Shown here one piece after another: positions 23,965 through 54,741 of a DNA stretch of 64,000 nt. Source of the stretch: Bradyrhizobium mercantei. GTDB lineage: Bacteria; Pseudomonadota; Alphaproteobacteria; Rhizobiales; Xanthobacteraceae. The notes below the pieces were generated by a model. It saw nothing but the letters and a program-made list of their open reading frames with translations, did no database searches and was not told the DNA's origin. The position numbers and the translations under genes were made by a program. The DNA lies in the NCBI RefSeq assembly GCF_001982635.1, contig NZ_MKFI01000001.1, positions 736,774 through 800,773 on the forward strand, written 5' to 3'. Numbering within the stretch: the first letter of the stretch is position 1; each line of letters starts with the position of its first letter.

Positions 23965-24400
23965 AGGGGGAGCTCATGCGATATTTCGATAGGCATTATC
24001 TAGCCCATCGAATTGTGTCGTTGACCTGCCCGCAATAGCCTTCCCCAAAACAAATCATCGGGGAGGAAACAGGTGGCGAGCGCCGTACCGGTCATCAACG
24101 ATATCACATACGAAAATTTGCTCGAAGACCCGTATCCTAGCTTCAGGCGGATCCAGGACACCGCGCCGGCCGTTTTCGTGAAGGCGGCAAACCTGACCCT
24201 CGTAACCCGCTTCGAGGATATTGCCAGGATCGAACGCGACCCCGTCGGCTATTCGGCCGATAATCCTACTTCGCTGGTCAACCAGATCATGGGCCCTACG
24301 TTCATGCGCAAGGACGGCGCCGAGCACGCTGTAGGGCGCAAGGCTATCGAACCCTCCTTTAGGGCAAGCACGATCAAGGAGCATTGGGCGCCGCACTTTT
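23965..24400 (+). repeat. Duplicated promoter and P450 5' segment, copy A
   Basis: This stretch (promoter, ribosome site and about the first 110 codons of the P450 at 24073) is clearly similar to 60075-60490 in the same orientation. Shared landmarks are CTAG-flanked GATA-N5-TATC, the ATCATCG before the ribosome site, and the coding segment for RFEDIAR. Identity looks like roughly three quarters by eye. Copy A has an intact gene and copy B is decayed. Confidence 0.8.
23988..24000 (+). promoter_or_regulatory. Candidate LysR-type site upstream of the first P450
   Basis: GATA-GGCAT-TATC is an inverted repeat 72 bp before the P450 start. The same half sites with a different spacer recur at 60097 in the duplicated copy, divergent from a LysR gene. 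Conservation of the arms and not the spacer suggests a protein-binding site. Confidence 0.5.
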
Positions 24401-26535: not shown

Positions 26536-26538
26536 CGA

Positions 26539-27414
26539 TTACTTCTCGTCCTCTATCGTATTCCGCAACGTTCCTAAGCCTTGCGCAGCGACCTCGACCA
26601 CGTCGCCCGGCTTGAGCCAGCGCGGAGGATCCAAGCGCGCTCCCGCCCCCGTCGGCGTTCCCGTCACCAGAACGTCCCCGGGAACGAGCGTGGTGAAGGT
26701 CGAGACGTAGTTGATGATCTTGCGAAAAGAGAAGATCATCCGTGACGTACGATCAGATTGACGCAGCTCGCCATTGACACGCGTCTCCAACTTGATGTCG
26801 GCGATCTGAGATTCGTCACGGAACGGAACCAGCCATGGTCCGATCGAGCCGCTGCCGTCGAAATACTTGCCCTGCGTCACGTTGAACTTCGCGTGGCGGA
26901 CCCAGTCACGAAGCGTGCCCTCGTTGCAAAGCGACAGCGCGGCTATGTGGTCCAGCGCCTGCGCTTCGGAGATCCGACGCCCGGCGCGGCCGATCACGAT
27001 CACGACTTCGCCCTCATAATCCAACTGCTGGGACTCGGCAGGTCGAAGCAAGGGCCGATCGTGTCCGACGAAGGATCGGGGGAATCGAACGAAGAGCGAA
27101 GGATTTGGCGGCGCGGCCTGGTTATCCTTGTACTCCTCGTTGCGGTCGGGATAGTTGACGCCGACGCAGATGATCTTCTCCGGCGAAGGCACGGGGATCT
27201 CATACCGCAATGAGGAAAGCTCGAGATCGGCAGGAAGGCCAGACGCATCCGTCAGCAGGTGCTCCAGGGCGCCCTCCGCCACGACCTCGCTTAAGTCGCG
27301 CCATCGCTCGCCGTAGCGTCTAGACAGGTCCACGACTCCATCGCCCTTCACGAGGCCGTATCCCGGCCTCCCGGCGTGGGAGAAGCTCATAAGCCTGACG
27401 GAAGGTTCGGTCAT
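26539..27414 (-). CDS. Fumarylacetoacetate hydrolase-family protein, HpaG-like (second copy)
   Basis: 291 residues, very similar to the protein at 4542-5438, with the same E-x-E metal pair (LDYEGEVVIVI), VTQGKYFD and GDVLVTGTPTGAGA. It lies between hpaD and hpaH on the minus strand, the expected place for the decarboxylase/isomerase step of homoprotocatechuate degradation. The start ATG 27414 is 43 bp after the hpaD stop. Full HpaG activity from a single-domain protein is not certain. Confidence 0.87.
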   Translation of the reverse strand: MTEPSVRLMSFSHAGRPGYGLVKGDGVVDLSRRYGERWRDLSEVVAEGALEHLLTDASGLPADLELSSLRYEIPVPSPEKIICVGVNYPDRNEEYKDNQAAPPNPSLFVRFPRSFVGHDRPLLRPAESQQLDYEGEVVIVIGRAGRRISEAQALDHIAALSLCNEGTLRDWVRHAKFNVTQGKYFDGSGSIGPWLVPFRDESQIADIKLETRVNGELRQSDRTSRMIFSFRKIINYVSTFTTLVPGDVLVTGTPTGAGARLDPPRWLKPGDVVEVAAQGLGTLRNTIEDEK

Positions 27415-27457
27415 TTCATTGTCTTCCGATGGAAGGCCTCGATCGCGTCCTGACTGA

Positions 27458-28438
27458 TCACGGCGCCACGATGGGCGTGGCTTTCAGATCGGGCTCCTTG
27501 ATGGCGACGCCTTGGAACGGCGTGCCCTCTTCGAACCACGATCGAGGTGCAGGAGCGCCCCAGAGCGTTTGACGTTGCGGATCCTTGAGGCTCCACTTCA
27601 GCGGCTCGAGATCGGGATCCACCGTCTGATAGTCGGAGCAATAGAACTCGACGCGGTGCCCGTCCGGATCGCGAACGTACAGGAAGAAGGCGTTCGACAA
27701 GCCATGCCGCCCGGGGCCGCGCTCGATGTTCGAGACGTAGCCGGTCGTGGCCATGAGATCGAGAAGATCAATGATGTTCAGCGGCGTCGGGACCCAGAAT
27801 GCCACATGATGAAGACGGGGACCGCTACCATTCGTGAACGCGATATCGTGAACGCCACCTTTCCGATGCATCCAGGCGGCCCATAGACGGCCTGTCACCT
27901 CGTCCTCGGTGTATTCGGTCGTCCGGAAACCGAGCTCGTTGTAGAAGGCGACCGCCTCATCGACGTTGCTCATGAAGAAATTGAAGTGGTCGATGCGGAG
28001 AGGTTTCACCCCCTTGTACAATCCGTATTTCTGATGGATCGGAGCGAGCCTGTCCATCTTCGCGTAGAACTCAAGGGGCGTGCCGTGCGGATCGCTCGTC
28101 AACAACGTACGCGATTGGAACGGACGATCGATCCAACGTACGGGAAGTCCGCGGGATTCGAAAAACCCCTGCGCCGCATCAAGATCCTTTTCGTCGAAAA
28201 GCTTGAAGCTCAGGTGTCGCGCGGCGGGCTCGTCGCCCTTTCTCAGGATCAGACAGTGATGTCCCCGTTCCTCCAGCGCGCGGAGAGTGATCATCTGACT
28301 GTCTTCGAACGTCACCTGCAAGCCCAGCGTGTCGACATAGAACGCGCGGCTCGCCTTCAGATCGCGCACGACGAGTTCCACGTGACTCAGACGGACGATG
28401 TTGACGGGCGGATACAGATTAGCGACAGGTATTGCCAT
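27458..28438 (-). CDS. hpaD: 3,4-dihydroxyphenylacetate 2,3-dioxygenase (second copy)
   Basis: 326 residues, colinear with the copy at 3498-4478. The metal residues recur in RIDHFN, RLHHVAF and HRVEFY, and the second-sphere histidine in GVHDIAF. ATG 28438 is chosen because GGGGAGAAAA precedes it. It lies 25 bp after the truncated hpaE. With its own promoter side removed by the IS-linked deletion upstream, its expression may now depend on a new promoter. Confidence 0.92.
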   Translation of the reverse strand: MAIPVANLYPPVNIVRLSHVELVVRDLKASRAFYVDTLGLQVTFEDSQMITLRALEERGHHCLILRKGDEPAARHLSFKLFDEKDLDAAQGFFESRGLPVRWIDRPFQSRTLLTSDPHGTPLEFYAKMDRLAPIHQKYGLYKGVKPLRIDHFNFFMSNVDEAVAFYNELGFRTTEYTEDEVTGRLWAAWMHRKGGVHDIAFTNGSGPRLHHVAFWVPTPLNIIDLLDLMATTGYVSNIERGPGRHGLSNAFFLYVRDPDGHRVEFYCSDYQTVDPDLEPLKWSLKDPQRQTLWGAPAPRSWFEEGTPFQGVAIKEPDLKATPIVAP

Positions 28439-28463
28439 TTTTCTCCCCACTTCCTGCGTTTCT

Positions 28464-29735
28464 TTAATTGGCTAGCTTGGAGATCCGGCGAGGCGCCGTC
28501 GCGAAGGCAACGTTCTTCGTCTCCATGTAGAAGTCGAACGACCAGTCGCCGCCGTCTCGGCCGATGCCGGACCCTTTTACGCCCCCGAACGGCGTGGGCA
28601 GGTGCCGAACATTCTCTGAATTCACCCAAATCATGCCCGCTTCCAGCTCTTCGCTGAATCGAAGGGCTCGCATGACGTCAGAGGTCCACAGATAGCCGGC
28701 CAGACCGTATTGCACGTCGTTCGCGAGCGCGAGCGCCTGGCTCTCGTCCTCGAACGAAATGGCGGTCAGAACGGGACCGAAGATTTCCTCTTGCGCGATC
28801 CGCATCCGATTGTTCGCGTCGACGAACAAGGTAGGCAAAACGTAGCACCCTCCGCCCGGGCCCGAGACCTTCTCGCCACCGGCGGCGACTTTCGCGCCCT
28901 CGGAACGTCCCAGGTCTATGTAGCTCAGGACCTTCTTTTCGTGGACCGGATGGATCAGAGGACCGACGACGGTGTCTGGATCAAGGGGGTGCCCTATCTT
29001 GATGCGCTTTGCCTTCTCGGCGACCGCCCGGGTGAATTTCTGGTAGACGCTCTTTTCGACGAACAACCGCGACGATGAGGTGCATCGTTCGCCGTTGTTC
29101 GAATAGATCATGAAAACTGCGGCGTCGGCTGCCCGCTCCAGATCGGCGTCCGCGAACACGACCATCGGATTTTTGCCGCCCAGCTCGAAGTGGACGCGCT
29201 TGAGCGTGTCCGCACCTTGCTTCAAGATCATGGCGCCCGTCCGGCTCTCGCCGACGAAGCCAATTGCCTTGATAGCCGGGTGCTCCGTGAGAGCCTTTCC
29301 TGCGTCTTCTCCCAGTCCGTTGACGAGATTCCAAACGCCCCTCGGCAGTCCGGCGCTCTCCGCGATCTCTACCAGTAGGCGCGCGGTTAGCGGCGAGAAT
29401 TCGGCCGGCTTATGGACGACGGTGCAACCGGCTGCCAGGGCGGGCGCAATTTTCCACGTCGACAGCATGAACGGAACGTTCCATGGAGTGATGATCCCGA
29501 CCGGCCCGATGGGCGTGCGCCCCGTCAGATTGAGCTGATCGACGGTGCGAAGGGTCTTGCCATCCCGCGCTTCGGGCGCGCGGTCCGCAAAGAAGCGAAA
29601 GTTTTCGGCCCCGCGAAGAGCTGCCTGCGACATGAACCGGTACGGCTGACCTGTATCCATGCATTCGACCAGCGCGATCTCCTCTGCCCGCGCTACGATC
29701 GCATCCGCGATCGTGTGAAGGATCCGGCGGCGCTC
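28464..29735 (-). pseudogene. hpaE: 5'-truncated hpaE (aldehyde dehydrogenase) fused to an IS remnant
   Basis: Residues from about 85 to the C-terminus of the HpaE at 1968 are present in one frame, including IITPWNVPFM, FELGGKNP, NGERCTSSSR and EEIFGPVL. Homology to HpaE begins at RRRILHTIADAIVARAEE near 29735, where it meets the cut end of an IS5-type transposase. The first 80 or so residues, which help form the NAD-binding domain, are missing. An internal ATG at 29660 leaves 398 residues, but that product would lack part of the fold. I treat it as non-functional. Confidence 0.85.
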
Positions 29736-30145
29736 AACGCCAGCCGTACCGGGAGACCATTATCGACCACCGCATGGATTTTGCTGGTCAAGCCGCCGCG
29801 TGACCTTCCCATCGACTGCCGCTGGTTCCTGGTGATGCAGGCCCTATGCTGATGAACGTGGACGATCGAGGTGTCGATCATCTGGACAGCGGCATCGTGG
29901 GCAGCGGCAAGCTCGTCTATGGTGCGGCCCCAGACACCGGCCCGCCGCCACCTAACGAAGCGGTTGTAGCACGTGGTGTACGGACCAAATGCCTCGGGCA
30001 GATCACGCCAGGGTGCTCCGGATCGCAAAACCCAGAAAATTCCATTGAGAACGCGTCGGTCGTTTACCCGGGGAACGCCACGCGGCTTGTTCGGCAGCAT
30101 CGGCTTGATGGCGGTCCATTCATGATCCGCGAGTTCGTAGCGCAT
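29735..30145 (-). mobile_element. IS5-family transposase remnant (3' part deleted)
   Basis: From ATG 30145 the frame encodes about 136 residues of an IS5/IS427-type transposase: MRYELADHEWTAIKPMLP, WRDLPEAFGP, YNRFVRWRRAGVW, the catalytic-region Asp in MIDTSIVHVHQH, and GRSRGGLTSKIHAVVD. It ends abruptly after LPVRLALS, where hpaE sequence begins. The C-terminal part with the remaining catalytic residues and the right end of the IS are gone. The left end should lie between 30146 and 30360 but I could not fix the terminal repeat. It cannot be mobile by itself. Confidence 0.88.
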
Positions 30146-30380
30146 GATTCGAGCCCCCAGTTCGGGAGTTTGAATCACGGAGGTCTGGCCAAGCGCAACG
30201 CTTCTGGCCCGACCCCGTTCGGCGCTTGCGGGCTGGAGCCGACATCGACCTGCCGACAATCGCCGATGAAACCGTCGAAAATGACCCCCATACCAAACAG
30301 ACTGGTCCCGAAAGCTTTGCGGCTGTTTGTACTGGAGAGAAAGCGTGCGATCCGATAAATGAGCGTGGACGGAGGACGCC

Positions 30381-31169
30381 ATGGAAGCGGATGATGTAAG
30401 ACGGGCTTGGGAAGCTAACGCAGATGCTTGGACGCGACACAGCCGGGCCGGGTATGACATTTATCGAGACGCCCTGAATACACCAGCATTCCTCGCGGCC
30501 CTGCCGACAGTCAAGGACTTGAAGGGACTCGATATCGGTTGTGGCGAAGGCAGCAATACGCGGCAAGTGGCTCGTCTCGGGGCGAACATGCACGCGATTG
30601 ATATAGCGCCCACCTTTATCCGCCACGCAGAGGAAGCCGAGCAAACTGAGCCGCTGGGCATCACCTATCGTACAGGTGACGCTGTGAGTCTGCCCTTTGA
30701 GGACGACACGTTCGATTTCGCAACCGCATTCATGTCCCTGATGGACGTGCCCAACCAACGCGCCGCGCTATCAGAAGCCTGTCGAGTGCTCCGACCGGGC
30801 GCATTCCTGCAATTTTCGATCCTGCATCCCTGCTTTGTGTCACCGTATCGAAAGACTCTGAAGGATGAGCACGGCCGGCGCGTAGCCATACAGAATGCTG
30901 GTTACTTCGACAATATTGACGGCCGTATAGATGCTTTTTGGTTCGAGACCTTGCCGGATGAGCTCCGCCAGCAAGATGGCCCTTTTCGCGTCCCTCGCTT
31001 TCATAGAACCCTAAGTCAGTGGGTCGAGATGATCACTATGGCAGGGCTGACTATCGAACAATTCGTCGAACCATGTGCTAGTTTGGAGTTAGCAAGCAAG
31101 GAGCCCGTGGTTGCAGACACCCGGATTGCTCCGATGTCACTGATCGTGCGCGTGAAAAAGCCTATGTGA
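30381..31169 (+). CDS. Class I SAM-dependent methyltransferase
   Basis: 262 residues. Motif I is LDIGCGEGSNTRQVARLG near residue 50, the acidic residue of motif II is in AIDIAPTFI, and TGDAVSLPFEDDTFDFA is the methyltransf_11 post-motif. It resembles UbiE/SmtA-type small-molecule methylases. GGAGGACGCC precedes ATG 30381. It stands alone between the IS remnant and a run of non-coding DNA, so it may have come in with the IS-linked rearrangement. Substrate unknown. Confidence 0.9.
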   Translation: MEADDVRRAWEANADAWTRHSRAGYDIYRDALNTPAFLAALPTVKDLKGLDIGCGEGSNTRQVARLGANMHAIDIAPTFIRHAEEAEQTEPLGITYRTGDAVSLPFEDDTFDFATAFMSLMDVPNQRAALSEACRVLRPGAFLQFSILHPCFVSPYRKTLKDEHGRRVAIQNAGYFDNIDGRIDAFWFETLPDELRQQDGPFRVPRFHRTLSQWVEMITMAGLTIEQFVEPCASLELASKEPVVADTRIAPMSLIVRVKKPM

Positions 31170-31553: not shown

Positions 31554-32720
31554 TTAATCCACGATCTTCCAATCGCCTTTTTCGATCTCAAGAAGTCGGA
31601 GGGATTCGAAGGAAAGACCATTGTGGTCCTTCTCGCTCATATTGAATGTGCCATTTGCTCCGACGAGGTCGCGCGTCCGCTCCAGCGCATCCCGCACTTT
31701 CTCCTTGTCGAAGCTGCCCGCCCGCTTCACGGCCTCGATGTATAAAAGAACGCCATCGAACGCATTCACGCCAAACGCCGACACGGGCTCCTTGTACTGT
31801 GTTTCGTACCGATGCTGGTAATCCATCACTACAGACTTTTGCCGGTCCTCCGCCGGCACCTTGTCGGCCACGATGCCGGCGGCGGCTGGGATCCGGACTC
31901 CTTCACCCGCCGCGCCCGTCACTTTCACGAACTCCTTCGAAGCGACGCCGTGCGACTGATACATCGGCAAGCGCATGTCGAGTTGCCTGTAGTTTTTGAC
32001 GGCTATGACGGCTCCCGATCCGAAGCCCCAGACCAACAGAGCTTGCGCTTGGGGATTGCCTCGGATTTTGGTGAGCTGCACGGTCGTGTCCGTGTCCTTC
32101 GCCCCGTAGATCTCGTCCGCGACGATCTGAATTCCATACGCGGGAGCCGCGTTCAATATCTGATCGCGGCCTGCTTTGCCGAAACCAGAATCCTCCGAGA
32201 GAAGCGCGACTTTCGTTAGCCCGCGTCGCTTCAGGTCTACGAAAACCTTTTCCGCCGCCATCCGGTCGCTATGGGGCACCTTGAACACCCACTTGCGCAC
32301 GGGGTTTACGATCACTCCGGCTCCCCCGAACGAAATAAAGGGCATTCCCGTTTTTTCGGCGAGCGGCGCGACGGCCATGCTGGTGGCGGTCGTGCTCCCG
32401 CCGATCAGGACATCGACGTTGTCGTTGTCGAGAAGGCGCTTGGCTAAACCTACCGCCCTGTCTGCCGCTCCTCCGTCATCGTAAAGGACCAGCTCGAGCT
32501 GTCGCCCAAGAAGGCCCCCGCCTGCATTAATCCGGCCGATTTCGGCTTCCATAGTCTTTTTTGCGGGCTCACCGAGATAGGCAGCCGGGCCGCTGGTGGT
32601 GAGGAACGAACCAATCCTTATCGACCGCTCAGCGGCCGCACCGAACTGCGGCGACACGATCAAACCAAGGCCGACGACCACCGAAGCGATAGTCTTAAGG
32701 CCTCCGATGAACTTCGGCAT
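31554..32720 (-). CDS. ABC transporter substrate-binding protein, branched-chain amino acid type (LivK-like)
   Basis: 388-residue periplasmic binding protein with a signal peptide ending near AAA-ERS. The family pattern is RIGSFLTTSGPAAYLGEP at the mature N-terminus and INAGGGLLGRQLELVLYDD. Related proteins in catabolic clusters bind aromatic acids. ATG 32720 follows GGGAGGAAACAC. The livFGMH genes at 38.3-42.3 kb lack a binding protein, so this is the likely partner. It is divergent from the MarR gene, with an operator between them and a terminator after it. Confidence 0.92.
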   Translation of the reverse strand: MPKFIGGLKTIASVVVGLGLIVSPQFGAAAERSIRIGSFLTTSGPAAYLGEPAKKTMEAEIGRINAGGGLLGRQLELVLYDDGGAADRAVGLAKRLLDNDNVDVLIGGSTTATSMAVAPLAEKTGMPFISFGGAGVIVNPVRKWVFKVPHSDRMAAEKVFVDLKRRGLTKVALLSEDSGFGKAGRDQILNAAPAYGIQIVADEIYGAKDTDTTVQLTKIRGNPQAQALLVWGFGSGAVIAVKNYRQLDMRLPMYQSHGVASKEFVKVTGAAGEGVRIPAAAGIVADKVPAEDRQKSVVMDYQHRYETQYKEPVSAFGVNAFDGVLLYIEAVKRAGSFDKEKVRDALERTRDLVGANGTFNMSEKDHNGLSFESLRLLEIEKGDWKIVD

Positions 32721-32760
32721 GTGTTTCCTCCCTGGACGCACTCTGTGGTGCTCGTGATTG

Positions 32761-33720: not shown

Positions 33721-34950
33721 ATGTCGACGGCACCGTTGCAAGCCGAACTGACTTCAGAACCGCTCGTCAGTTGTCCGGTCTCTCGCCTAGATCCTTTTGG
33801 GCGCGAATTCCTCACTGACCCCTATCCTTTTCATGGAGAACTCCGAGACGCCGGTCCCGTCGTTTGGCTTGAGCGTTACCAGGTTTGGGGCTTTGCCCGT
33901 CACGCCGAAGTGTACGCGGCCATGCAGGACTGGCAGACCTATTCGTCTGCGGCGGGCGTCGGCATAGACGATTTTCGCAAGAACAAGGCGTGGCGACCCC
34001 CAAGCCTGCTGCTTGAGGTCGATCCCCCGCTCCACACGCGCACCCGCGCCGTGATGAGCAAGATTCTCAGCCCTGCGGCCATGCGGCGCCTTCGCGATGA
34101 GTGGCAAACCAGAGCCGACACGTTGGTGGAGAAGCTCATAGAGCGAGAGACCTTCGACGCCGTGAAGGACCTGGCGAGCGTATTCCCAGTATGGGCATTT
34201 CCGGACGCCATCGGGATCGGCATGGAGGGGCGCGAGAACCTCCTGCCCTTCGGCAACATGATCTTTAACTCGTTCGGGCCCCGGAACGAGATCTTCCTGG
34301 AGTCGATCAAAGAGGCGGAGCCGGTCGTTGCCTGGATTTATGGAAAGTGTGCGCGTGATGTTCTGGCCCCCGGCAGCTTCGGTGCGCAAGTCTACGACGC
34401 ACTCGATCGAGGCGAGATTCAGCCCGACGAGGCACCCGTGTTGGTGCGGGCGATGCTCACGGCCGGACTGGATACTACTGTCATCGGCATCGGCTCCTCA
34501 ATACACGCCTTCGCCCTCTATCCGGAGCAGTGGCAAAAGCTGCGGGAAAACCCGACGCTCATCCGCCCCTCCTTCGATGAATTGCTGCGTTGGGCGTCCC
34601 CTGTTCAGACGTTCTTCCGCACGACCACGCGCGACGTGCAGGTCGGCGCAACCATGATCCCGGACGGATCCAAGGTGCTCCTCTTCCTCGGTTCGGCCAA
34701 TCGCGATCCGCGCAAATGGGAGGACCCCGACAAATTCAACATCACGCGCTCGACGACGGGCCATGTGGGCTTTGGAACGGGCATTCACGGGTGTGTCGGA
34801 CAGATGGTCGCGCGAATGGAAGCCGAGGTCGTCCTGACGTCGATGATCAAACGCATCAAGTCGATCGAAATCGTCGGCGAACCCGTTCGGCGTCTCAACA
34901 ATACCCTCCGCTCCTTGTCGAGCCTGCCGGTTCGCGTCACTCCTGCTTGA
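33721..34950 (+). CDS. Cytochrome P450, CYP199A-like (para-substituted benzoate oxidation/O-demethylation)
   Basis: 409 residues behind AGGGAGG. The numbering coincides with CYP199A4 of Rhodopseudomonas palustris: Arg92 and Ser95 (WRPPSLLL) that hold the benzoate carboxylate, Phe182 and Phe185, Arg243, the acid-alcohol pair Asp251/Thr252 (AGLDTT), Phe298 and heme Cys358 (FGTGIHGCVG). Residue 244 is Ala, where CYP199A4 has Ser. That family demethylates 4-methoxybenzoate and related acids. Ferredoxin and reductase genes follow directly, so the whole electron chain is encoded here. Confidence 0.93.
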   Translation: MSTAPLQAELTSEPLVSCPVSRLDPFGREFLTDPYPFHGELRDAGPVVWLERYQVWGFARHAEVYAAMQDWQTYSSAAGVGIDDFRKNKAWRPPSLLLEVDPPLHTRTRAVMSKILSPAAMRRLRDEWQTRADTLVEKLIERETFDAVKDLASVFPVWAFPDAIGIGMEGRENLLPFGNMIFNSFGPRNEIFLESIKEAEPVVAWIYGKCARDVLAPGSFGAQVYDALDRGEIQPDEAPVLVRAMLTAGLDTTVIGIGSSIHAFALYPEQWQKLRENPTLIRPSFDELLRWASPVQTFFRTTTRDVQVGATMIPDGSKVLLFLGSANRDPRKWEDPDKFNITRSTTGHVGFGTGIHGCVGQMVARMEAEVVLTSMIKRIKSIEIVGEPVRRLNNTLRSLSSLPVRVTPA

Positions 34951-38326: not shown

Positions 38327-39649
38327 TCACATGCCAAGATACGCGCGCCGGACATCGTCGTTCGCGAGCAGCTCATGGCCGCGGCCCTCCAGCGTCACTT
38401 TGCCGGTCTCCAACACGTAAGCGTAGTCGGCGATGGAAAGCGCCGCACGTGCGTTCTGCTCGACCAATAGAATCGTCATCCCGCTCTGCTTCAAGGTCCG
38501 AATGATTCGGAAGATTTCCTCCACGATCAGCGGCGCCAATCCCATGGATGGTTCATCCAGCAGGAGCAGTTTCGGTTTACCCATGAGAGCCCGGCCGAGC
38601 GCCAACATCTGCTGCTGACCGCCCGACAGGGTCCCCGCCGGTAACGCGCGCTTCTCGCGCAGAATCGGGAAAAGCTCGTAAACCTCGCTCAACCCAGAGG
38701 CGATCTCCTTGCCAGGCCGCGTATACGCACCCATGACCAGATTATCTTCGATCGACATTGGGCCAAACACCTGCCGACCCTCCGGCGAATGGCAGATTCC
38801 CCACCTGACTCGCGCGGCGGACCGGACCGAGGTGATGGCCTCTTTTCCGAAATGAATGGCCCCTGCACTCGCCGGCCGGACTCCCGAAATGCATCGCAAG
38901 AGCGTCGTCTTGCCTGCGCCATTGGCGCCGATCAGGGCAACGAGTTCACCTTCCCCCACCGTAATGGAAACGCCGTGGAGCACCTGGATCTGACCATAGC
39001 GAGTCCGAAGATCACGTATCTGAAGGAGATCCCGTCCGGCACGCGGCGCCGCCGAGATCGCGACGACGGAGCCGAAATCCTTCTCGGCACCGCGCCCATC
39101 CGACGCAGGTAGAAGCGGCGTAATGCGTTGTTGCAGCAGGGTCATCTTTCCCGCAGGGCCCGAATGACTTAACGGATCGACGTGGGCCTCGAAGGCCGCA
39201 TCGATCTCGACCCAGTCGGCGGACGTAAAGATCTTACGCGCGAGCGCAAAAGTTACTTCCTCCTCCAGCTTCATGTGTGCATCGAGATGAGCGCGAAAAC
39301 GTTCGATGGCTTCGGCAAGGGCTTGCCCGCAGCCGTGCTCAGGCTCTGCCTTGATAAGAGCGCGGATCAAAGCCAGTTTTTGCGGACTGGCTTCGTGGTC
39401 GCCGCGAAGCTTCGCAAGAATCTCGCCGGCCTCCTCCGATCGTTCGCGCAACCGAGCGAAGAGTTGATCGTCCTCCTTCGGATGATGAAAACGTCCAGTG
39501 AACTGTTCGAAATAGTCGAGGATGAGCTCGACCGTATGCGCGTCGTGAGCATCCCAACTCTCCCTGAGGCGAGCGCCGAGCATTGAAAGCGCGGTGGCAA
39601 GCTGCCACATCGTGCGATGCTCGTTTCGGATGATGTCAAGGGACCGCAT
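38327..39649 (-). CDS. LivF-type ABC ATPase with an N-terminal hemerythrin-like domain
   Basis: 440 residues. Residues 1-170 form a hemerythrin/HHE four-helix domain with all expected iron ligands: His11 (RNEHR), His55/His56 and Glu59 (HHPKED), His85 (GDHEAS), His121, His125 and Glu129 (HLDAHMKLEEE). From about 207 a complete LivF follows: Walker A GANGAGKTT, LSGGQQQML, Walker B LLLLDEPSMGL, and VEQNA. Normal LivF is about 235 residues. The start lies one base after the LivG stop, so the fusion is part of the operon and not a misread. Iron or oxygen sensing by the extra domain is inferred. Confidence 0.92.
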   Translation of the reverse strand: MRSLDIIRNEHRTMWQLATALSMLGARLRESWDAHDAHTVELILDYFEQFTGRFHHPKEDDQLFARLRERSEEAGEILAKLRGDHEASPQKLALIRALIKAEPEHGCGQALAEAIERFRAHLDAHMKLEEEVTFALARKIFTSADWVEIDAAFEAHVDPLSHSGPAGKMTLLQQRITPLLPASDGRGAEKDFGSVVAISAAPRAGRDLLQIRDLRTRYGQIQVLHGVSITVGEGELVALIGANGAGKTTLLRCISGVRPASAGAIHFGKEAITSVRSAARVRWGICHSPEGRQVFGPMSIEDNLVMGAYTRPGKEIASGLSEVYELFPILREKRALPAGTLSGGQQQMLALGRALMGKPKLLLLDEPSMGLAPLIVEEIFRIIRTLKQSGMTILLVEQNARAALSIADYAYVLETGKVTLEGRGHELLANDDVRRAYLGM

Positions 39650-39650
39650 C

Positions 39651-40415
39651 TCAGGTCTCGCCCACTTCACTGCCGAGGTAGGCCGCGATAACGTCACGGT
39701 TGATGCGGATTTCGTCGGGGGTCCCCTCGGCAAGGCGCTTCCCGTGGTCGAGCACCAATATACGTTCTGAGATGCTCATGACGAGCCTCATATCATGTTC
39801 GACGAGAACGACGGTGATGCCGGACTTCGCGAGCCTGACGATCAGCTCCTCGATTTCATGCGTTTCGGTATGATTCAGACCCGCAGCCGGTTCGTCTAGG
39901 AGGAGCAGCTTCGGCTCCATCGCGAGCGCACGAGCGATTTCGAGACGTTTCAGAGCTCCATAGGGCATCGCACTGGCATCGGCCGCGACGAATTTCTTGC
40001 ACCCGACAAAGGTGAGCAATTCGGCGGCCTTCATCCGACAGGCCCTGTCGGATTGGCGCAGGCCCGGCGCCCTGATCATGCCGGCGAGCAGGCTCGAATT
40101 GAGGTTGAGATGAGCCCCCACCATGACGTTCTCGACGGCGCTCAGATTCATGCAGACCTGCAGGTTCTGAAACGTACGGCTCAACCCGCGGCTCGCGAGG
40201 ATATTTGACGAAATGCCTGAAATTTCCTCGCCCGCGAGCGAGATCGATCCCGCCGAGGGAACGTAAAGGCCGGTGATCAAATTAAACAGCGTCGTCTTGC
40301 CCGCTCCGTTCGGTCCAATGACGGCGTAGACGCCCCCTCGCGGGATCTCGAACGAGACGTCCTCGATAGCATGGACGCCCCCGAAGCTTTTCGATAGGTG
40401 CGATACCTTTAGCAT
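39651..40415 (-). CDS. livG: ABC transporter ATP-binding protein, LivG type
   Basis: 254-residue ATPase of the branched-chain amino acid type importer. Walker A is GPNGAGKTT; the signature position reads MPYGALKRLEIA, where LivG proteins have a YGxQRRLEIA-type sequence; Walker B is LLLLDEPAAGLN, followed by VEHDM. It begins directly after the LivM stop and is followed at once by the hemerythrin-LivF gene. Confidence 0.93.
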   Translation of the reverse strand: MLKVSHLSKSFGGVHAIEDVSFEIPRGGVYAVIGPNGAGKTTLFNLITGLYVPSAGSISLAGEEISGISSNILASRGLSRTFQNLQVCMNLSAVENVMVGAHLNLNSSLLAGMIRAPGLRQSDRACRMKAAELLTFVGCKKFVAADASAMPYGALKRLEIARALAMEPKLLLLDEPAAGLNHTETHEIEELIVRLAKSGITVVLVEHDMRLVMSISERILVLDHGKRLAEGTPDEIRINRDVIAAYLGSEVGET

Positions 40416-41384
40416 TCAACCCTCCGGACGCCGGAACAGGCCCGCAAGGCTGGGTACGATACCGCGCGGCAGAAAAATCATCGTGACGACCAGGATTACG
40501 CCGAACGCAATGGTCTCCCATCCTTCGAAGCTCGCGAGAACCTGCGGAAGAAGGCTCAGCAGGACGGCTCCGAACACGGCACCCCAAACCGATGCCATGC
40601 CTCCGACTACCACCATCGTGACCAGCTCAACCGAATGCGGGAACGCAGCTATCCCCGGCGTGATGAAGCCCAAGTAGTGCGCCGAGAGACTTCCTATGAT
40701 GGCCGCGTAGGACGCCGACAGAACGAAGACTCGCGTTTTGAAGCTTGCGGTGTCGATGCCCATGGCCCGCGCCGCGACCTCCGAACCGTGCAAAGCCTGG
40801 AGAGCCCGGCCTGCCGGCGAGTCGACGAGGTTCTGGGCAAGCACAATCGTGACGACCAACAAAGCGGCAAATATCCAGTACCATTGCCTCTCACCGGACG
40901 GCTGCCAGCCGAACATCACGAAGTCCCCGACTGACATACCGTCCGGACCTCCAGTCCACACGGTCTCGTTCGTGATGACGATCGAGATGATGATGCCCAG
41001 CCCCAGTGTAGCCATCGCCAGGTAGTGCCCTTTGAAGCGCAGGATCAAGCCGGCGATGACCCAGGCGAGAACGCCCGCCGCGATCGCAGAAACCACAAGG
41101 GCCAGGCCGGGATGAATGTCCCAGCGGGATGTCAAAATGGCCGACCCATAAGCTCCGAGACCTACGAATCCTGCATGACCGAGACTGATCTGCCCCGTGT
41201 AACCGATCAACAAGTTCAACGTGATGGCAAGCACGGCATTGATCGCGATCCGGATCGCGACGTCCAGGTAGAATGCGTTCGGCAAGAACACCGGCAGGAC
41301 CATGAGAACGACTGTCACGGCGAGAAGCCCCGGAGCTCTGCTCCGCGGCGCAAGAACATCCGGTAGGGAACCGCTTGTGCTCAT
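40416..41384 (-). CDS. livM: ABC transporter permease, LivM type
   Basis: 322-residue inner-membrane protein with many hydrophobic helices. The LivM core GYTGQISLGHAGFVGLGAY and the loop GSEVAARAMGID are visible. Its ATG overlaps the LivH stop as ATGA. In aromatic clusters such importers take up benzoate-like acids or other carboxylates. Confidence 0.93.
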   Translation of the reverse strand: MSTSGSLPDVLAPRSRAPGLLAVTVVLMVLPVFLPNAFYLDVAIRIAINAVLAITLNLLIGYTGQISLGHAGFVGLGAYGSAILTSRWDIHPGLALVVSAIAAGVLAWVIAGLILRFKGHYLAMATLGLGIIISIVITNETVWTGGPDGMSVGDFVMFGWQPSGERQWYWIFAALLVVTIVLAQNLVDSPAGRALQALHGSEVAARAMGIDTASFKTRVFVLSASYAAIIGSLSAHYLGFITPGIAAFPHSVELVTMVVVGGMASVWGAVFGAVLLSLLPQVLASFEGWETIAFGVILVVTMIFLPRGIVPSLAGLFRRPEG

Positions 41385-42253
41385 ACCCGATCCGTCTGCC
41401 TGGCGCCGAACAAGCCCTGAGGTCTAAGGCCAAGGATCAGAAGCGCGAGAACGAAAGATACCGCATCCTTGTATGCGGACGACGCGTAGCCGGCGGTCAT
41501 CGACTCGAGAAGGCCCAGCAGAAGCCCGCCCAGGACGGCGCCCACCCCGCTCCCAAGGCCGCCCAGCGTCGCCGCGACGAACCCCTTCAGCCCGAGCATG
41601 CCGCCCGAATCGTAGGAGGTCGTCGCAATCGGTGCGACAAGAATGCCGCCAACGGCGCCGATCGCGGCCGACAGAACGAAGCTCAGCATTAAGACGGTGC
41701 GGGTGTCGACACCAACGAGCTCGGCGGCAAGCCGATTGTAGGCCGCGGCCAGCATGCCTTTACCGATGCGCGTGCGGCCGAAGAAGAAACTTAGGCCCAC
41801 GACGAGAAGCGCGGAAACACAGAGGATCCAGATGCTCTGAGGCAGGATGGTCGCTCCAAAGACCGCAATGGGCTTGTCTCCGGAGAATGCAGGCAAGGAA
41901 TGGTTGGCCTTTCCGAACGTGACCTGGACGATGCCTCGCAATATCATCGCAACTCCAAGCGTTATGATGATGAGACTGACCACGTCCGAGCCGCTTGCAG
42001 GTTCGACGACGAGCTTTTCGATGATAAGACCGACTAGTGCGATGGCTACCACGCTCAAAAGCGCAGCGAGCGGCAACGGGATGCCCGCCGCCGTCAAGAA
42101 TGCCCCTGCCATGCCCCCCAGCATCATGAACTCGCCTTGCGCGAAATTGATCACACCCGAGGCATTGTAGATGATCGAAAACCCGAGCGCGGCGAGTGCG
42201 TAGATCGCTCCAACGGTCAGTCCGGAAGATACGAATTGCAAGAATTGAGACAT
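41381..42253 (-). CDS. livH: ABC transporter permease, LivH type
   Basis: 290-residue membrane protein. Family marks are ASGVINFAQGEFMMLGGM and the loop YNRLAAELVGVDT. ATG 42253 (MSQFLQFVSSGL) follows AAAGGA; the frame is open much further upstream but that sequence overlaps the CoA-transferase gene in another frame. It starts the liv operon 30 bp after scoB, so the CoA-transferase genes may be co-transcribed. Confidence 0.93.
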   Translation of the reverse strand: MSQFLQFVSSGLTVGAIYALAALGFSIIYNASGVINFAQGEFMMLGGMAGAFLTAAGIPLPLAALLSVVAIALVGLIIEKLVVEPASGSDVVSLIIITLGVAMILRGIVQVTFGKANHSLPAFSGDKPIAVFGATILPQSIWILCVSALLVVGLSFFFGRTRIGKGMLAAAYNRLAAELVGVDTRTVLMLSFVLSAAIGAVGGILVAPIATTSYDSGGMLGLKGFVAATLGGLGSGVGAVLGGLLLGLLESMTAGYASSAYKDAVSFVLALLILGLRPQGLFGARQTDRV

Positions 42254-42282
42254 GCCCGTCCTTTGCCGCAATGGCTGCGCGT

Positions 42283-42933
42283 TTAGTTGCCAGCAACGCG
42301 AATGTCGAAGGTCGCCTCGGTCTTGCTCTTGATTTCGTCGAGGGTAACTCCATCCGCGATTTCGACGAGCCGCATGACGTTCGAGCCGATCTTGTCGATC
42401 TGGAAGACACCAAGATCGGTGATGACCATATCCACGACCCTCGATCCCGTTAGAGGGAGACCGCAGTCGCGGAGCAGCTTCGGCCCGTCCTTGCTCACGT
42501 GTTCCATGACCACGATGACTTTTCTCACGCCCGCGACCAGATCCATCGCTCCCCCCATTCCCTTGACGATCTTGCCGGGAATGGCCCAATTGGCGAGGTC
42601 TCCGTTCTGCGCCACCTGAAGGGCGCCCAGGATGGACAGGTCAATGTGTCCGCCACGGATCATGGCGAACGACTCTGCCGATGAGAAATAGCTGGTCGTC
42701 GGCAGTTCCGTGATGGTTTGCTTGCCGGCATTGATCACATCGGCGTCCTCGTCCCCTTCGTAAGGAAACGGTCCCATCCCGAGCATGCCGTTTTCGCTCT
42801 GCAATTGCACCTTCATCCCTGCGGGAATGAAGTTCGGTACGAGTGTGGGAATTCCGATACCCAGATTGACGTACAAGCCCTCGCGCAGCTCTTTGGCGGC
42901 ACGGGCGGCTATCTGATCGCGGGTCCAGGGCAT
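42283..42933 (-). CDS. scoB: 3-oxoacid CoA-transferase, subunit B
   Basis: 216 residues. The catalytic glutamate lies in SENGMLGMGP. Together with subunit A it moves CoA from succinyl-CoA to a 3-oxo acid: acetoacetate (ScoAB) or 3-oxoadipate (PcaIJ). Because fumarylacetoacetase and homogentisate genes are close, acetoacetate is the better guess. GGAGATCAG precedes ATG 42933; the gap to subunit A is 22 bp. Confidence 0.9.
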   Translation of the reverse strand: MPWTRDQIAARAAKELREGLYVNLGIGIPTLVPNFIPAGMKVQLQSENGMLGMGPFPYEGDEDADVINAGKQTITELPTTSYFSSAESFAMIRGGHIDLSILGALQVAQNGDLANWAIPGKIVKGMGGAMDLVAGVRKVIVVMEHVSKDGPKLLRDCGLPLTGSRVVDMVITDLGVFQIDKIGSNVMRLVEIADGVTLDEIKSKTEATFDIRVAGN

Positions 42934-42955
42934 CTGATCTCCGTTCCGTCAGTGG

Positions 42956-43663
42956 CTAAGCATTCGGTCGTTTGCGCACGGTACGCTGCTCTATGTGCTT
43001 GGCGACGTTCGGAACATGAACGATACGATCAACATAGATTCCCGGCGTATGAATTGAATCCGGATCGAGCGCTCCTGGCTCGAGCAGATGCTCGACTTGC
43101 ACGACGGTCACGCCGCCGGCCGTCGCCATGATCGGATTGAAGTTGCGTGCGGCCTTGCGAAAGACGAGGTTTCCCTCAGTGTCCGCCTTCCATGCGTGGA
43201 CAAGCGAGACGTCGGCGCGGAGCCCCAGTTCCATCAGATACTTCTCGCCGCCGAATTCGCGAACTTCTTTGCCCTCGGCGATGACGGTACCCACACCGGT
43301 CCTGGTGTAGAATGCAGGAACTCCGGCCCCTCCCGCTCGAATTCGCTCCGCCAGGGTCCCTTGCGGATTGAATTCGAGCTCCAGCTCACCCGAGAGATAC
43401 TGTTGAGCGAAACGCTTGTTCTCGCCCACATAGGAGGAGATCATCTTCCTGATCTGCCTCGTCTCGAGCAAGATGCCGAGACCCACCCCGTCCACGCCGG
43501 CGTTGTTGGAAATGACCGTGAGGTTCCTTGCGCCCGTTTCCTTCACGGCCTCGATGAGTGCTCCAGGGACCCCACAGAGCCCGAATCCGCCTGCCATCAG
43601 CGTCGTGCCGTCATTCACCAGGCCATCAATGGCGTCACGTGCGTTCTCGAACACTTTACCCAT
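42956..43663 (-). CDS. scoA: 3-oxoacid CoA-transferase, subunit A
   Basis: 235 residues. The glycine-rich CoA site is MAGGFGLCGVP and the family block SYVGENKRFAQQYLSGELE is present. The length fits ScoA. It leads the scoA-scoB pair on the minus strand, 129 bp after the fumarylacetoacetase stop, and would activate the acetoacetate released by that enzyme. Confidence 0.9.
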   Translation of the reverse strand: MGKVFENARDAIDGLVNDGTTLMAGGFGLCGVPGALIEAVKETGARNLTVISNNAGVDGVGLGILLETRQIRKMISSYVGENKRFAQQYLSGELELEFNPQGTLAERIRAGGAGVPAFYTRTGVGTVIAEGKEVREFGGEKYLMELGLRADVSLVHAWKADTEGNLVFRKAARNFNPIMATAGGVTVVQVEHLLEPGALDPDSIHTPGIYVDRIVHVPNVAKHIEQRTVRKRPNA

Positions 43664-43792: not shown

Positions 43793-45118
43793 TCACACGG
43801 CCTTGCTGACGGTCGTTCGACATTCGCCGAATCCGATCCGACCCCGTCCTTCTGCCTCGCACCAAGCGCTCATGATCACAGTGTCGCCGTCCTCAAGGAA
43901 AATCCTCGTCTCGCCGGACGGCAGCGACACCGGCGAGCTGCCTCCCTCACTGAGCTCCAAGAGGCACCCTCTCGACTCCGGCGCAGGTCCGGATATCGTT
44001 CCTGTGCCCAAAAGATCACCGGGCTGCAGATTGCATCCGTTCGATGTCTGGTGCGCGACGACCTGCGCGATGGTCCAGTAGGCATCTGCGTAGTTCGACA
44101 GGGAGAGGCGAGCCGGCGGCAACCCGCGCGCGCGCATGGCCGCGCTCAGTAGGTGGATCGAAACCTTGATATCGATCGCGCCCCGCGTCGCGTCGTTGGA
44201 TGATGTCAGGTGTGGCAAGGAAGCCGGATCTCCGTCTGGTCTGCGATGGGGCCTACGATAGGGATCGAGAGCATCAAAACTTACGACCCAAGGCGAGATC
44301 GACGTCGCGAAGCTCTTCGCCAAGAACGGTCCAAGCGGCTGATACTCCCATGACTGGATGTCTCTGGCGGACCAGTCGTTGAGCAGGCAGACGCCGAAAA
44401 GATGGTCCTCGACGCGGTCGATCGGAATTGGCGTGCCTAGTGTGTTACCCGCCCCGACAAATACTCCGAGCTCGGCTTCGTAGTCGAGCCGTCGGCAATC
44501 CGAATAGATCGGATCGGCGGATCCCGGCGTGAGGATCTGTCCTCTCGGGCGAACGACAGGTTGCTCAGAAAGAAGGATCGAAGACGTCCTTCCCTGATAC
44601 CCAACGGGAAGCCAGCGGTAGTTGGGCAAGATCGGATTTTCCGGCCTGAACAGTTTTCCTACGTTCGTGGCGTGATGGATGGAACAGTAGAAGTCCGAAA
44701 AATCGCCGATCCGGGCAGGCATCTTGAATTCAACTTCACGAAGGCCAATCAAGGCGCCCGCAACGCGCTTTCTCTGCGGAAAATCGTGCTGCAGGATTCG
44801 CGAAAGATTTCTGCGCAAGGCTCGCTGTGCGCGACGTCCTGCAGCCATGAACTCGTTCAAGCTCGACGACGAGACAAGATTGATCGCGGCCAGTCCTGGC
44901 TCGTTCAGATGAGGTGAAAGGCAAGACGCAGACAGATCGATCAGAGAATCACCTATCGCGATTCCTGCCCGAAACTGCTCGTCGGAGCCGGCCCTACGGA
45001 AGACCGCGACCGGTAGATTTTGAATGGGGAAGTCACCATTCTTATCATTCGCCGCTTCGACCCAGCTCCGCAGCTCTGGATCATGCGTTTGATCGAGATC
45101 GTACGTCGCTTCTGTCAT
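43793..45118 (-). CDS. fahA: Fumarylacetoacetase
   Basis: About 441 residues. Splits fumarylacetoacetate into fumarate and acetoacetate, the last step of homogentisate degradation. The active-site block DFYCSIHHATNVG, LDYEAELGVFVG and the C-terminal GDLLGTGTISGP are characteristic. A TTG at 45124 is also in frame, but ATG 45118 has GAGGA at good distance. The stop of the DUF2783 gene overlaps this start region, so translation is likely coupled. It is third in a hydroxylase-coupling protein-fumarylacetoacetase operon. Confidence 0.94.
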   Translation of the reverse strand: MTEATYDLDQTHDPELRSWVEAANDKNGDFPIQNLPVAVFRRAGSDEQFRAGIAIGDSLIDLSASCLSPHLNEPGLAAINLVSSSSLNEFMAAGRRAQRALRRNLSRILQHDFPQRKRVAGALIGLREVEFKMPARIGDFSDFYCSIHHATNVGKLFRPENPILPNYRWLPVGYQGRTSSILLSEQPVVRPRGQILTPGSADPIYSDCRRLDYEAELGVFVGAGNTLGTPIPIDRVEDHLFGVCLLNDWSARDIQSWEYQPLGPFLAKSFATSISPWVVSFDALDPYRRPHRRPDGDPASLPHLTSSNDATRGAIDIKVSIHLLSAAMRARGLPPARLSLSNYADAYWTIAQVVAHQTSNGCNLQPGDLLGTGTISGPAPESRGCLLELSEGGSSPVSLPSGETRIFLEDGDTVIMSAWCEAEGRGRIGFGECRTTVSKAV

Positions 45119-45120
45119 CT

Positions 45121-45321
45121 TCAATCCTCGGTCGATGAGCCGCGGGCGCGGCTAATAGCCTCGCGAAGTACGCCCCTGTCACCGACATGGTTCGCAAGGA
45201 TAAGCACTAGCTTGCAGTTCATCAGTTCGGCCGCCTCTTCCGTCATGTCCCGCTGCGAGTCGATTAGCTCCTGATAGAATCCGTCCGGATCAGCGATGTT
45301 AGGCTTTGTGAGCAAATCCAT
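45121..45321 (-). CDS. DUF2783 small protein, probable MhaB-type coupling protein
   Basis: 66 residues (MDLLTKPNIADPDGFYQELI at the start). It matches DUF2783, small proteins encoded next to flavin hydroxylases. In Pseudomonas putida U the 3-hydroxyphenylacetate 6-hydroxylase needs a small coupling protein, MhaB, beside the flavoprotein MhaA; the size and position here suggest the same role. Its ATG follows the hydroxylase stop as TGAAATG and its own stop touches fahA. It shows no signal or membrane segment. Confidence 0.82.
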   Translation of the reverse strand: MDLLTKPNIADPDGFYQELIDSQRDMTEEAAELMNCKLVLILANHVGDRGVLREAISRARGSSTED

Positions 45322-45322
45322 T

Positions 45323-46942
45323 TCACCCCCTGCAGCATCTGATGGCGCGGGCCAGCGCCTTCCTGATATTGTCGGCGTCGAATTGGCGCCAGCGCGCCGC
45401 GACATACTGATCCGGCCGGATCAGATAGGTGGTTCCGGGGCGACCGTCGTAGCGCGCGCAGAGAATGCCCCGGCAATCTTCGATATCGCGCCCGACCACG
45501 AGAATGCTCGCCTTGACCAGGCCATGAGCGATCGTCTCCAGGTCGGGAGAGACGCCAAACGTCAGCACTACAAAGCCATTCCCGAGCTGGTTCAGCAACC
45601 AAGCCTCTTCGGCATTCCGACGGATCGGCGCGTCTTCGCAATTCGTACCGGGGGCCAACCTGCTGTCGAAGACATCTTCGTCCGGCGTGTTCAGCGACGA
45701 GTTCACATAGGGCGTGGGGCGCGATAGGCGCCCGGAGTTAAGCAACGGGCGGGCGAATTCGTTATTCGCCGCAAGTTCCAATACCGCATCTCGATAGCGC
45801 CGACTGGTCGCGCTCTTAGGCGTGATGAAATCCGTCGAACGTGTGGAATTGAGGAGATTGTCGTCTGCGGCGACGCCGCGCTCCTCATTGTAGGAGTCTA
45901 TTAGGCCGATTGGCGCCTCCCCATCGATGATTAGCCTCAACTTCCAACCGAGATTGTCGATGTCCTGCACGCCAGTGTTGGCCCCCCTGCCCCCAAATGG
46001 AGAAACCTGGTGCGCGGAATCGCCCGCGAAAAGGACTCGACCGTACCGGAAATCGTCGATCCGGCGGCAGGCAAACTGATAGATGGACACCCACTCGAGC
46101 TCGAAGTTGTGTTCATCGCCGAGCATCGCCCGGATGCGCGGAATGACCCGCTCCGGCTTCCTCTCCTCATCGGGATCGGCATCCTGTCCGAGTTGAAAAT
46201 CGATGCGCCAGACGTCGCTTGCCTGCCTGTGCAGCAGTGCCGACTGATTGCGGTGGAATGGCGGATCGAACCAGAACCAGCGCTCCGGCGGAAATCCTGC
46301 CTTCATCACGACGTCGGCGATGAGGAAGCGATCCTGAAAGGCCTGCCCCGAAAATTTCGCGCCGACCATCTCGCGAACGTCGCTGTTGGCGCCATCGCAA
46401 GCCACGACCCAGTCGGCAGTCAAACTAAATTCGCCGTCTGGCGTCTCTACCGATAGAACCACGTGATCGTTCGCCTGCTTCAGGCCCACGACCTTGTGCT
46501 TCCAACGCACGTCGACCAAGGGCTGTCGGCCGATCTCTTCGATCAGCGATTCCTCGAGGTAGTACTGCTGGAGGTTGATCATCGCCGGCATTTTGTGATC
46601 AGTCTCAGGCAACAGATCGAACTGATAGCGAAGCTCGTTCCGGAAGAAGACCTTGCCGACTTTCCAACTCACGCCCTTTTCGACCACACGATCAGCGCAG
46701 CCGAGACGATCCCACACCTCCAGCGACCGCTTGGCATAGGCCAGCGCCCGCGACCCGACCGATACGGTGTCGTTGTCGTCGAGCACGACGGCAGAAATCC
46801 CGCGCGAAGCGAATTCCAAAGCAGCAGTGAGCCCAATCGGGCCAGCTCCAACGACCACTACCGCATGTCGATTAGGGACCGCCCCACTCTGCTCGGGCGA
46901 CGGCCGGTACTCGAATTTCGGAAACTTGTAGGTTTTGAGCAT
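45323..46942 (-). CDS. FAD-dependent hydroxylase, MhaA-like (3-hydroxyphenylacetate 6-hydroxylase candidate)
   Basis: 539 residues with VVVGAGPIGLTAALEFASRG near residue 30, ACDGANSDVREMVG and GDSAHQVSPFGGRGANTGVQD. The chain continues with a C-terminal thioredoxin-like region. Enzymes of this group hydroxylate phenolic acids para to the existing hydroxyl. With DUF2783, fumarylacetoacetase and homogentisate dioxygenase nearby, conversion of 3-hydroxyphenylacetate to homogentisate is the best guess. ATG 46942 (MLKTYKFPKFEYRP) is preferred over an upstream in-frame codon. Confidence 0.85.
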   Translation of the reverse strand: MLKTYKFPKFEYRPSPEQSGAVPNRHAVVVVGAGPIGLTAALEFASRGISAVVLDDNDTVSVGSRALAYAKRSLEVWDRLGCADRVVEKGVSWKVGKVFFRNELRYQFDLLPETDHKMPAMINLQQYYLEESLIEEIGRQPLVDVRWKHKVVGLKQANDHVVLSVETPDGEFSLTADWVVACDGANSDVREMVGAKFSGQAFQDRFLIADVVMKAGFPPERWFWFDPPFHRNQSALLHRQASDVWRIDFQLGQDADPDEERKPERVIPRIRAMLGDEHNFELEWVSIYQFACRRIDDFRYGRVLFAGDSAHQVSPFGGRGANTGVQDIDNLGWKLRLIIDGEAPIGLIDSYNEERGVAADDNLLNSTRSTDFITPKSATSRRYRDAVLELAANNEFARPLLNSGRLSRPTPYVNSSLNTPDEDVFDSRLAPGTNCEDAPIRRNAEEAWLLNQLGNGFVVLTFGVSPDLETIAHGLVKASILVVGRDIEDCRGILCARYDGRPGTTYLIRPDQYVAARWRQFDADNIRKALARAIRCCRG

Positions 46943-47163
46943 CGCCGTCCCTACGCCGCGCGCTCGCATCCGGGACGCGCGCACGGCACGTCCCCATAAT
47001 CAGAAACCAAGATCGAGATATGCCCGAGCCGGTTTTGCGGGAAGCTTTCGGAACCCGCCATTCGCCTCGGCCCCCGCATCACGTCGTTCATCCGCTTCAT
47101 CCCTTACGGAGCAGCGCGCTGGGCTTGCGAATGTTTCGCAAGACGCAACGCCTCCACCTACTT

Positions 47164-54699: not shown

Positions 54700-54741
54700 C
54701 GCCTGTTGCAGACCGTCACTGAAGGGAAAGGGACAACGAAG

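Follow-up and report, generated by a model that had tools for sequence, protein, structure and literature searches.

Why should one ATPase of a bacterial nutrient importer carry a hemerythrin-like domain, and what could such a domain do for uptake? Here, we address this question for a gene at positions 38327-39649 (minus strand) of a 64,000-nucleotide stretch of the Bradyrhizobium mercantei genome (contig NZ_MKFI01000001.1), the whole of which we call the window. The gene encodes a hemerythrin-like domain joined to a LivF-type ATP-binding cassette (ABC) ATPase. We find that this fusion recurs in Alpha-, Beta- and Gammaproteobacteria with a conserved set of six predicted di-iron ligands, and we tentatively favour, at slightly under even chances, the reading that the domain is an oxygen or redox switch that sets the rate at which a probable aromatic acid is imported. 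The gene and its parts are as follows.

38327..39649, minus strand: fused gene, hemerythrin-like domain and LivF-type ABC ATPase, 440 amino acids (open frame, Pfam, AlphaFold2)
39110..39649, minus strand: hemerythrin-like domain, residues 1-180 (PF01814, ligand set, model)
39050..39109, minus strand: linker, about residues 181-200, predicted disordered (predicted local distance difference test, pLDDT, <50 at residues 182-199)
38330..39037, minus strand: ABC ATPase domain, residues 205-440 (motifs, Pfam, PDB match)

The initial annotation had read a hemerythrin domain joined to a LivF-type ATPase from this gene, and this is confirmed: a single uninterrupted frame of 440 residues holds both domains, each above its Pfam cut-off. 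Hemerythrin (PF01814) spans residues 4-136 with 43.4 bits against a cut-off of 25.3, and ABC_tran spans residues 224-368 with 99.3 bits against a cut-off of 25. The ATPase part has a Walker A motif (GANGAGKT, 241-248), a signature motif (LSGGQ, 341-345, within LSGGQQQ) and a Walker B motif (LLLLDEP, 361-367). Its best PDB match (48% identity) is 1ji0, which we take to be the LivF structure of Thermotoga maritima, and the fused protein scores 267.9 bits with the Escherichia coli LivF equivalog NF008626, below the cut-off of 441. The ATG of the fused gene lies one base past the stop of the preceding livG (TGA-G-ATG). GC content at the three codon positions of residues 1-168 (0.69, 0.41, 0.65) resembles that of the ATPase part (0.65, 0.45, 0.72) and of livG (0.61, 0.42, 0.74). 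The window's own database record, the 272-residue protein P0022, starts at M169 (codon 39143-39145) and cuts the domain off. A Bradyrhizobium relative, P0132, is annotated at the same length of 272 residues, and the annotated start probably hides the domain both there and in P0217 (Candidatus Accumulibacter sp. 66-26); the architecture is probably under-counted. At E <= 0.001, the fused gene is the only PF01814 match in the 8.84-Mb genome of the window.

A search with the window's N-terminal region returned 21 matches, three of them fused and 73%, 69% and 37% identical to it in that region. The most distant of these three, used as query in its turn, returned 110 matches, 107 of which have both Pfam domains; its domain thus opened a wider family, and a family confined to Bradyrhizobium is ruled out. 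A scan of 84,980 species (one genome each) yielded 202 relatives, the best 80 of which were retained. These 80 loci were found by the domain itself. In 79 of them the frame leads on to an ABC ATPase recognisable by its Walker A motif, its signature motif or both; the eightieth (L113) leaves its contig after 202 residues, before any ATPase motif. A stop is reached in 73 loci, after 433-446 residues in 72 of them and after 371 residues, near a contig end, in L068; the other seven run off their contigs (L076, L080, L093, L100, L105, L109 and L113). Since the architecture recurs in database proteins and is read through in frame at 79 of 80 loci, a chance or frameshift fusion is ruled out, and the same domain order, which the initial annotation had proposed to look for in other genomes, is indeed found there (107 of 110 matches, 79 of 80 loci).

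The fused loci belong mostly to Betaproteobacteria, with some in Alpha- and some in Gammaproteobacteria. Carriers include Zoogloea, Azonexus, Dechloromonas, Rhodoferax, Castellaniella, Simplicispira, Candidatus Accumulibacter, a Rhodopseudomonas metagenome-assembled genome, Pinisolibacter and Arhodomonas. Their spread is patchy. Under a strict match limit, with the best four or five candidates per genome scored, the fusion was recovered in 3/296 genomes of the window's family (the window's included), 1/385 of its class (the window's own) and 8/349 of an order sample centred on Dechloromonas (the centre included). Within the window's genus, a close relative is present in 1/265 genomes, the window's own. 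A viral origin is rejected, as a scan of the viral_contigs set gave 27 pattern matches and no relative. One genome, that of Pinisolibacter aquiterrae, has two fused paralogues, L141 (G922:C10) and L116, one of the window type and the other grouping with the betaproteobacterial type. A related hemerythrin domain is also fused to a Usp domain (P0006 to P0020, P0129 and P0131) and forms its own clade.

The predicted di-iron ligands H11, H55, E59, H85, H125 and E129 (H-HxxxE-H-HxxxE) are conserved, and from its sequence the domain is predicted to bind two irons. Of 190 distinct fused proteins, a set whose rows include near-identical Zoogloea proteins and cut-off loci and are not independent, 187 retain all six positions. 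Of the other three, one has E59D and two contain a stretch that looks frameshifted. In one alignment of 42 relatives that are 31-52% identical to the window domain, the six ligands are invariant. The claim of the initial annotation that all seven likely iron ligands of a hemerythrin domain are present has to be revised to six, as the second histidine of the canonical HxxxH is P89 in the window (H85xxxP89; H125xxxE129) and H121, an extra ligand candidate, is a histidine in just 5 of the 190 proteins. Ligand conservation thereby rules out a seven-ligand O2 carrier. The predicted fold is the four-helix bundle of the Hemerythrin/HHE superfamily: when the domain is modelled by itself (pLDDT 90.3; predicted template modelling score, pTM, 0.86), helices fall at residues 2-30, 34-70, 72-100, 107-140, 143-155 and 168-179. 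The AlphaFold2 model of the full-length protein has a mean pLDDT of 87.8 and a pTM of 0.61.

Instead of the canonical seven-ligand pattern of chimeric sensors (H-HxxxE-HxxxH-HxxxxD), the domain has a six-ligand set in which H11, H55xxxE59, H85 and H125xxxE129 match the BRUTUS-type pattern H-HxxxE-H-HxxxE. In BRUTUS-type proteins, domains with this pattern hold a di-iron site that is reactive towards O2 and H2O2, according to excerpts of PMC12022348. As the site is of this hemerythrin-like type and not of the seven-ligand O2-carrier type, iron and nitric oxide (NO) have to be considered as signals next to oxygen. In the first case, the domain would sense iron, like its counterparts in FBXL5 and BRUTUS, and tune the importer to the supply of iron that iron-dependent oxygenases need. 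Plant BRUTUS shares the ligand pattern (excerpts of PMC12022348), and in both BRUTUS and FBXL5 the sensor domain is likewise N-terminal; their output, however, is a eukaryotic ubiquitin ligase, and FBXL5 is absent from the three matches of a PDB sequence search. We consider iron sensing rather improbable.

Thirty fused hemerythrin domains group together as a single clade (support 98/92), apart from 31 standalone and 17 Usp-linked ones, a result that fits a single fusion. The ATPase tree, comprising 45 fused and 15 unfused sequences (the latter judged from their DNA, and seven of them paralogues from the window's genome), has six changes of fusion state, with unfused copies scattered among fused ones, and its starred branches alone force at least three changes. 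Many of its inner branches are weak; the sequences suggest one gain and several losses as the natural reading. Sequences from the 80 loci were hand-picked for spread, 37 for the ATPase tree and 22 for the hemerythrin tree. The trees omit P0133 to P0143, the ATPase-only proteins nearest to the ATPase domain of the window (70-77% identity), because an annotated start can conceal a hemerythrin domain.

The unfused livF at L145 keeps, just upstream of position 5581 of that locus, a stub of about 28 residues that resembles helix 1 and scores 45, against a mean of 23.3 and a maximum of 35 in shuffled sequence (0/300 shuffles as high). The corresponding values for L143 (11/300) and L149 (15/300) are marginal, and no domain remnant was found in L144, L146, L147, L148 and L150 (140 to 267 of 300 shuffles as high). 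A split gene in the unfused orthologues is ruled out, as their stretches (L143 to L150, 7 to 18 kb each) contain no separate hemerythrin match. The median pairwise ratio of non-synonymous to synonymous substitution rates (dN/dS) is 0.38 for the hemerythrin domain, 0.29 for the linker and 0.10 for the ATPase (384, 382 and 384 pairs from 29 chosen loci; the pairs are not independent). For the hemerythrin domain the ratio is below 1 in all 384 pairs; the domain is constrained, less than the ATPase. The six state changes, the helix-1 stub at L145 and the faster evolution would suit a structural or vestigial, metal-free appendage heading for loss. Yet 187 of 190 proteins, from alpha-, beta- and gammaproteobacterial carriers, retain the ligands while the rest of the domain diverges, and these ligands do not vary among the 42 relatives at 31-52% identity to the window, which makes a mere vestige very unlikely.

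The fused gene, here HrlivF, belongs to an operon of the order livH-livM-livG-HrlivF on one strand, with livG, livM and livH directly upstream of it. These partners and further genes of the window are listed below.

39651..40415, minus strand: LivG-type ATPase partner, no hemerythrin domain (Pfam ABC_tran, BCA_ABC_TP_C)
40416..41384, minus strand: LivM-type permease (Pfam BPD_transp_2)
41381..42277, minus strand: LivH-type permease (Pfam BPD_transp_2)
42283..43663, minus strand: 3-oxoacid CoA-transferase subunits B and A (TIGR02428, TIGR02429, both above cut-off)
43793..45124, minus strand: fumarylacetoacetase (TIGR01266, 502.3 bits, cut-off 375.3)
45323..46984, minus strand: flavin adenine dinucleotide (FAD)-dependent monooxygenase, probably with an aromatic substrate (NCBIfam NF006002, 819.9 bits, cut-off 416)
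31554..32741, minus strand: periplasmic substrate-binding protein, probably of this importer (Pfam Peripla_BP_6, 197.6 bits)

The window also holds cytochrome P450 and ferredoxin-reductase genes; the three P450 genes lie at 24073-25254, 33721-34950 and 54706-55917 (+). A possible meta-cleavage cluster at 25732-29660 (minus strand) comprises an aldehyde dehydrogenase, a glyoxalase-fold protein that is possibly an extradiol dioxygenase, an FAA hydrolase and a fourth frame (25732-26535) with no Pfam match. A frame at 29693-30460 (minus strand) reads like an IS5-type transposase.

Across the 80 fused loci, with neighbour genes named from NCBIfam, the liv partners are near-constant (LivG in 76, LivM in 75, LivH in 73) and paa genes are frequent (PaaN, PaaG and PaaX in 38 each, PaaH in 26). 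A window-type FAD monooxygenase of 52-57% identity is found near 28 loci, and a relative of the substrate-binding protein in 20. Under stricter identity limits, a paa gene occurs in 53 of the 80 loci, and a paa gene or FAD monooxygenase lies within 10 kb in 61; one or the other is present in 44 of the 48 loci whose flanks both reach 5 kb or more. The substrate of the importer is probably an aromatic acid. In the window itself, PaaN, PaaG, PaaH and PaaX have no match, and a search of the window's genome with PaaN_2 gave none either, but the control for that search was silent too. Of the 80 fused loci, 31 encode a metallo-beta-lactamase-fold protein (L061:9940-10905 and relatives), and 26 of these 31 have the FAD monooxygenase as well. 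By the same limits, two of the eight unfused orthologues lie in a like neighbourhood, L147 with a paa gene and L144 with an FAD monooxygenase (51%) plus relatives of the P450 and the fumarylacetoacetase; L143 and L146 have weaker paa-like matches. Fused and unfused orthologues in similar operons are natural pairs with and without the domain, which makes its role directly testable.

The conserved fusion, the aromatic context of most relatives, the helical bundle and the ligand set together make an oxygen- or redox-responsive importer the best reading. By analogy with hemerythrin chimeras, O2 or an oxidant would toggle the di-iron site between its reduced and its oxidised form. This change might shift the position of the domain relative to the LivF/LivG pair, and the shift could in turn change the ATP turnover of the pair, so that uptake of aromatic acids would be kept in step with the oxygen needed by their mono-oxygenases. 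In the window the domain is confined to LivF, so that a single sensor would be expected for each importer. Q398 occupies the switch (H-loop) position of LivF, which in LivG is a histidine (VEHD). The putative sensor and the altered switch are thus found on one and the same subunit, an arrangement that may matter. Studies of how oxygen controls aromatic degradation usually look at transcription. A di-iron sensor inside an importer ATPase could respond quickly and intervene at the very first step, and uptake matched to oxygen would, if the proposal is true, matter to bacteria moving between oxic and anoxic conditions.

Denitrification markers give a hint that the carriers live with changing oxygen. 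In the order sample (one sample, centre left out, kinship uncorrected), nosZ (PF18764) was found in 4/7 fused and 51/341 other genomes (Fisher p 0.014). In the comparison of 21 fused genomes (12 hand-picked; a genome present twice counted once; kinship uncorrected) with eight unfused ones, nosZ differs weakly (15/21 versus 2/8, p 0.038), narG shows no difference (12/21 versus 3/8, p 0.43), and nosZ or narG taken together show no clear one (19/21 versus 5/8, p 0.11). Hand-picking and uncorrected kinship are the reason why we take this result only as a hint. The same markers bear on a domain that responds to nitric oxide or nitrosative stress, for many carriers have denitrification genes: nosZ or narG is present in 19 of the 21 fused genomes and nosZ is enriched in the order sample. 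However, five of the eight unfused genomes have one of the two genes as well (p 0.11), and the genome of the window matches narG but not nosZ, and we give NO sensing only a slim chance.

Several observations weigh against an oxygen or redox switch. Characterised chimeric sensors keep the seven-ligand set, from which this domain departs. Placement of the domain on the ATPase is unsure in the model, given the pTM of 0.61 and the disordered linker. The domain evolves faster than the ATPase (0.38 versus 0.10), and fusion state changes six times on the ATPase tree. The context count of 61/80 covers loci of this family only, and the window, having no match to the four paa families, may import a substrate other than that of its relatives. 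The lifestyle markers separate fused from unfused genomes weakly for nosZ, not at all for narG and not clearly for either marker. Finally, unfused operons in like neighbourhoods (2/8) indicate that the domain is dispensable and, as it was probably lost several times, it is not essential to the transporter. Of the oxygen-switched aromatic-acid importer put forward in the initial annotation, the conserved fusion and the aromatic context (61/80) therefore hold up, whereas the seven-ligand site does not and the domain has turned out to be dispensable.

A further alternative is that the domain is a tethered scavenger of O2, peroxide or NO, or an oxygen store, which would shield the cell or supply oxygenases while leaving the ATPase unregulated. 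With a linker predicted to be disordered, there is no evident sign of tight coupling. For the standalone hemerythrins of benzoate clusters, a role as oxygen store or scavenger has been proposed (excerpts of PMC6449761), and PMC8913304 describes a hemerythrin-like protein of mycobacteria as an NO peroxidase. One copy per importer would, however, make a poor scavenger, and scavenging needs no stable fusion to one ATPase, whereas 79 of the 80 loci (found by the domain) are fused and their domains form one clade. On balance, we regard a tethered scavenger or store as unlikely. We return, then, to the oxygen or redox switch, from which a broader proposal follows, possible but more doubtful than the switch itself: that these proteins define an undescribed class of ABC importers, widespread in Proteobacteria, in which one of the two ATPases bears a di-iron sensor through which oxygen or redox state switches uptake of a carbon source directly, at the transporter and without transcription, the sensor having been gained once and shed repeatedly by lineages no longer needing it.

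How does this architecture compare with known systems? LivF of branched-chain/aromatic amino-acid (HAAT) importers shares the ABC motifs and the operon with LivG, LivM and LivH; the fused protein differs by about 200 extra N-terminal residues with the hemerythrin-like domain. ABC importers with other fused regulatory domains exist, such as MetN and OpuA. Among the matches listed from the open-access literature, none names an ABC importer with a hemerythrin domain, and none describes a hemerythrin-LivF fusion in its title or abstract opening. The Pfam pairing is visible in database records, so the architecture is machine-catalogued, yet not described as far as the literature searched reaches. 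NMB1532 (PDB 2p0n), of unassigned function, is a separate solved protein of 172 residues and unfused. The chimeras DcrH, Bhr-DGC and Bhr-HD-GYP, described as O2 or redox sensors in excerpts of PMC9388753, likewise join a hemerythrin domain to an output domain; here, the output is an importer ATPase and the six ligands depart from the canonical H-HxxxE-HxxxH-HxxxxD. The nearest precedents in the literature consulted are two. Standalone COG3945 hemerythrins sit in benzoate clusters of Rhodocyclales and Rhodoferax ferrireducens (excerpts of PMC6449761); they share the context of aromatic catabolism but are separate genes, not part of an importer ATPase. P1B-5 ATPases also carry a hemerythrin-like domain on a transport ATPase, but according to excerpts of PMC9388753 they are P-type metal pumps with a C-terminal domain of the pattern H-HxxxE-HxE-HxxxxD, whereas the window protein belongs to an ABC importer and bears an N-terminal domain with H-HxxxE-H-HxxxE.
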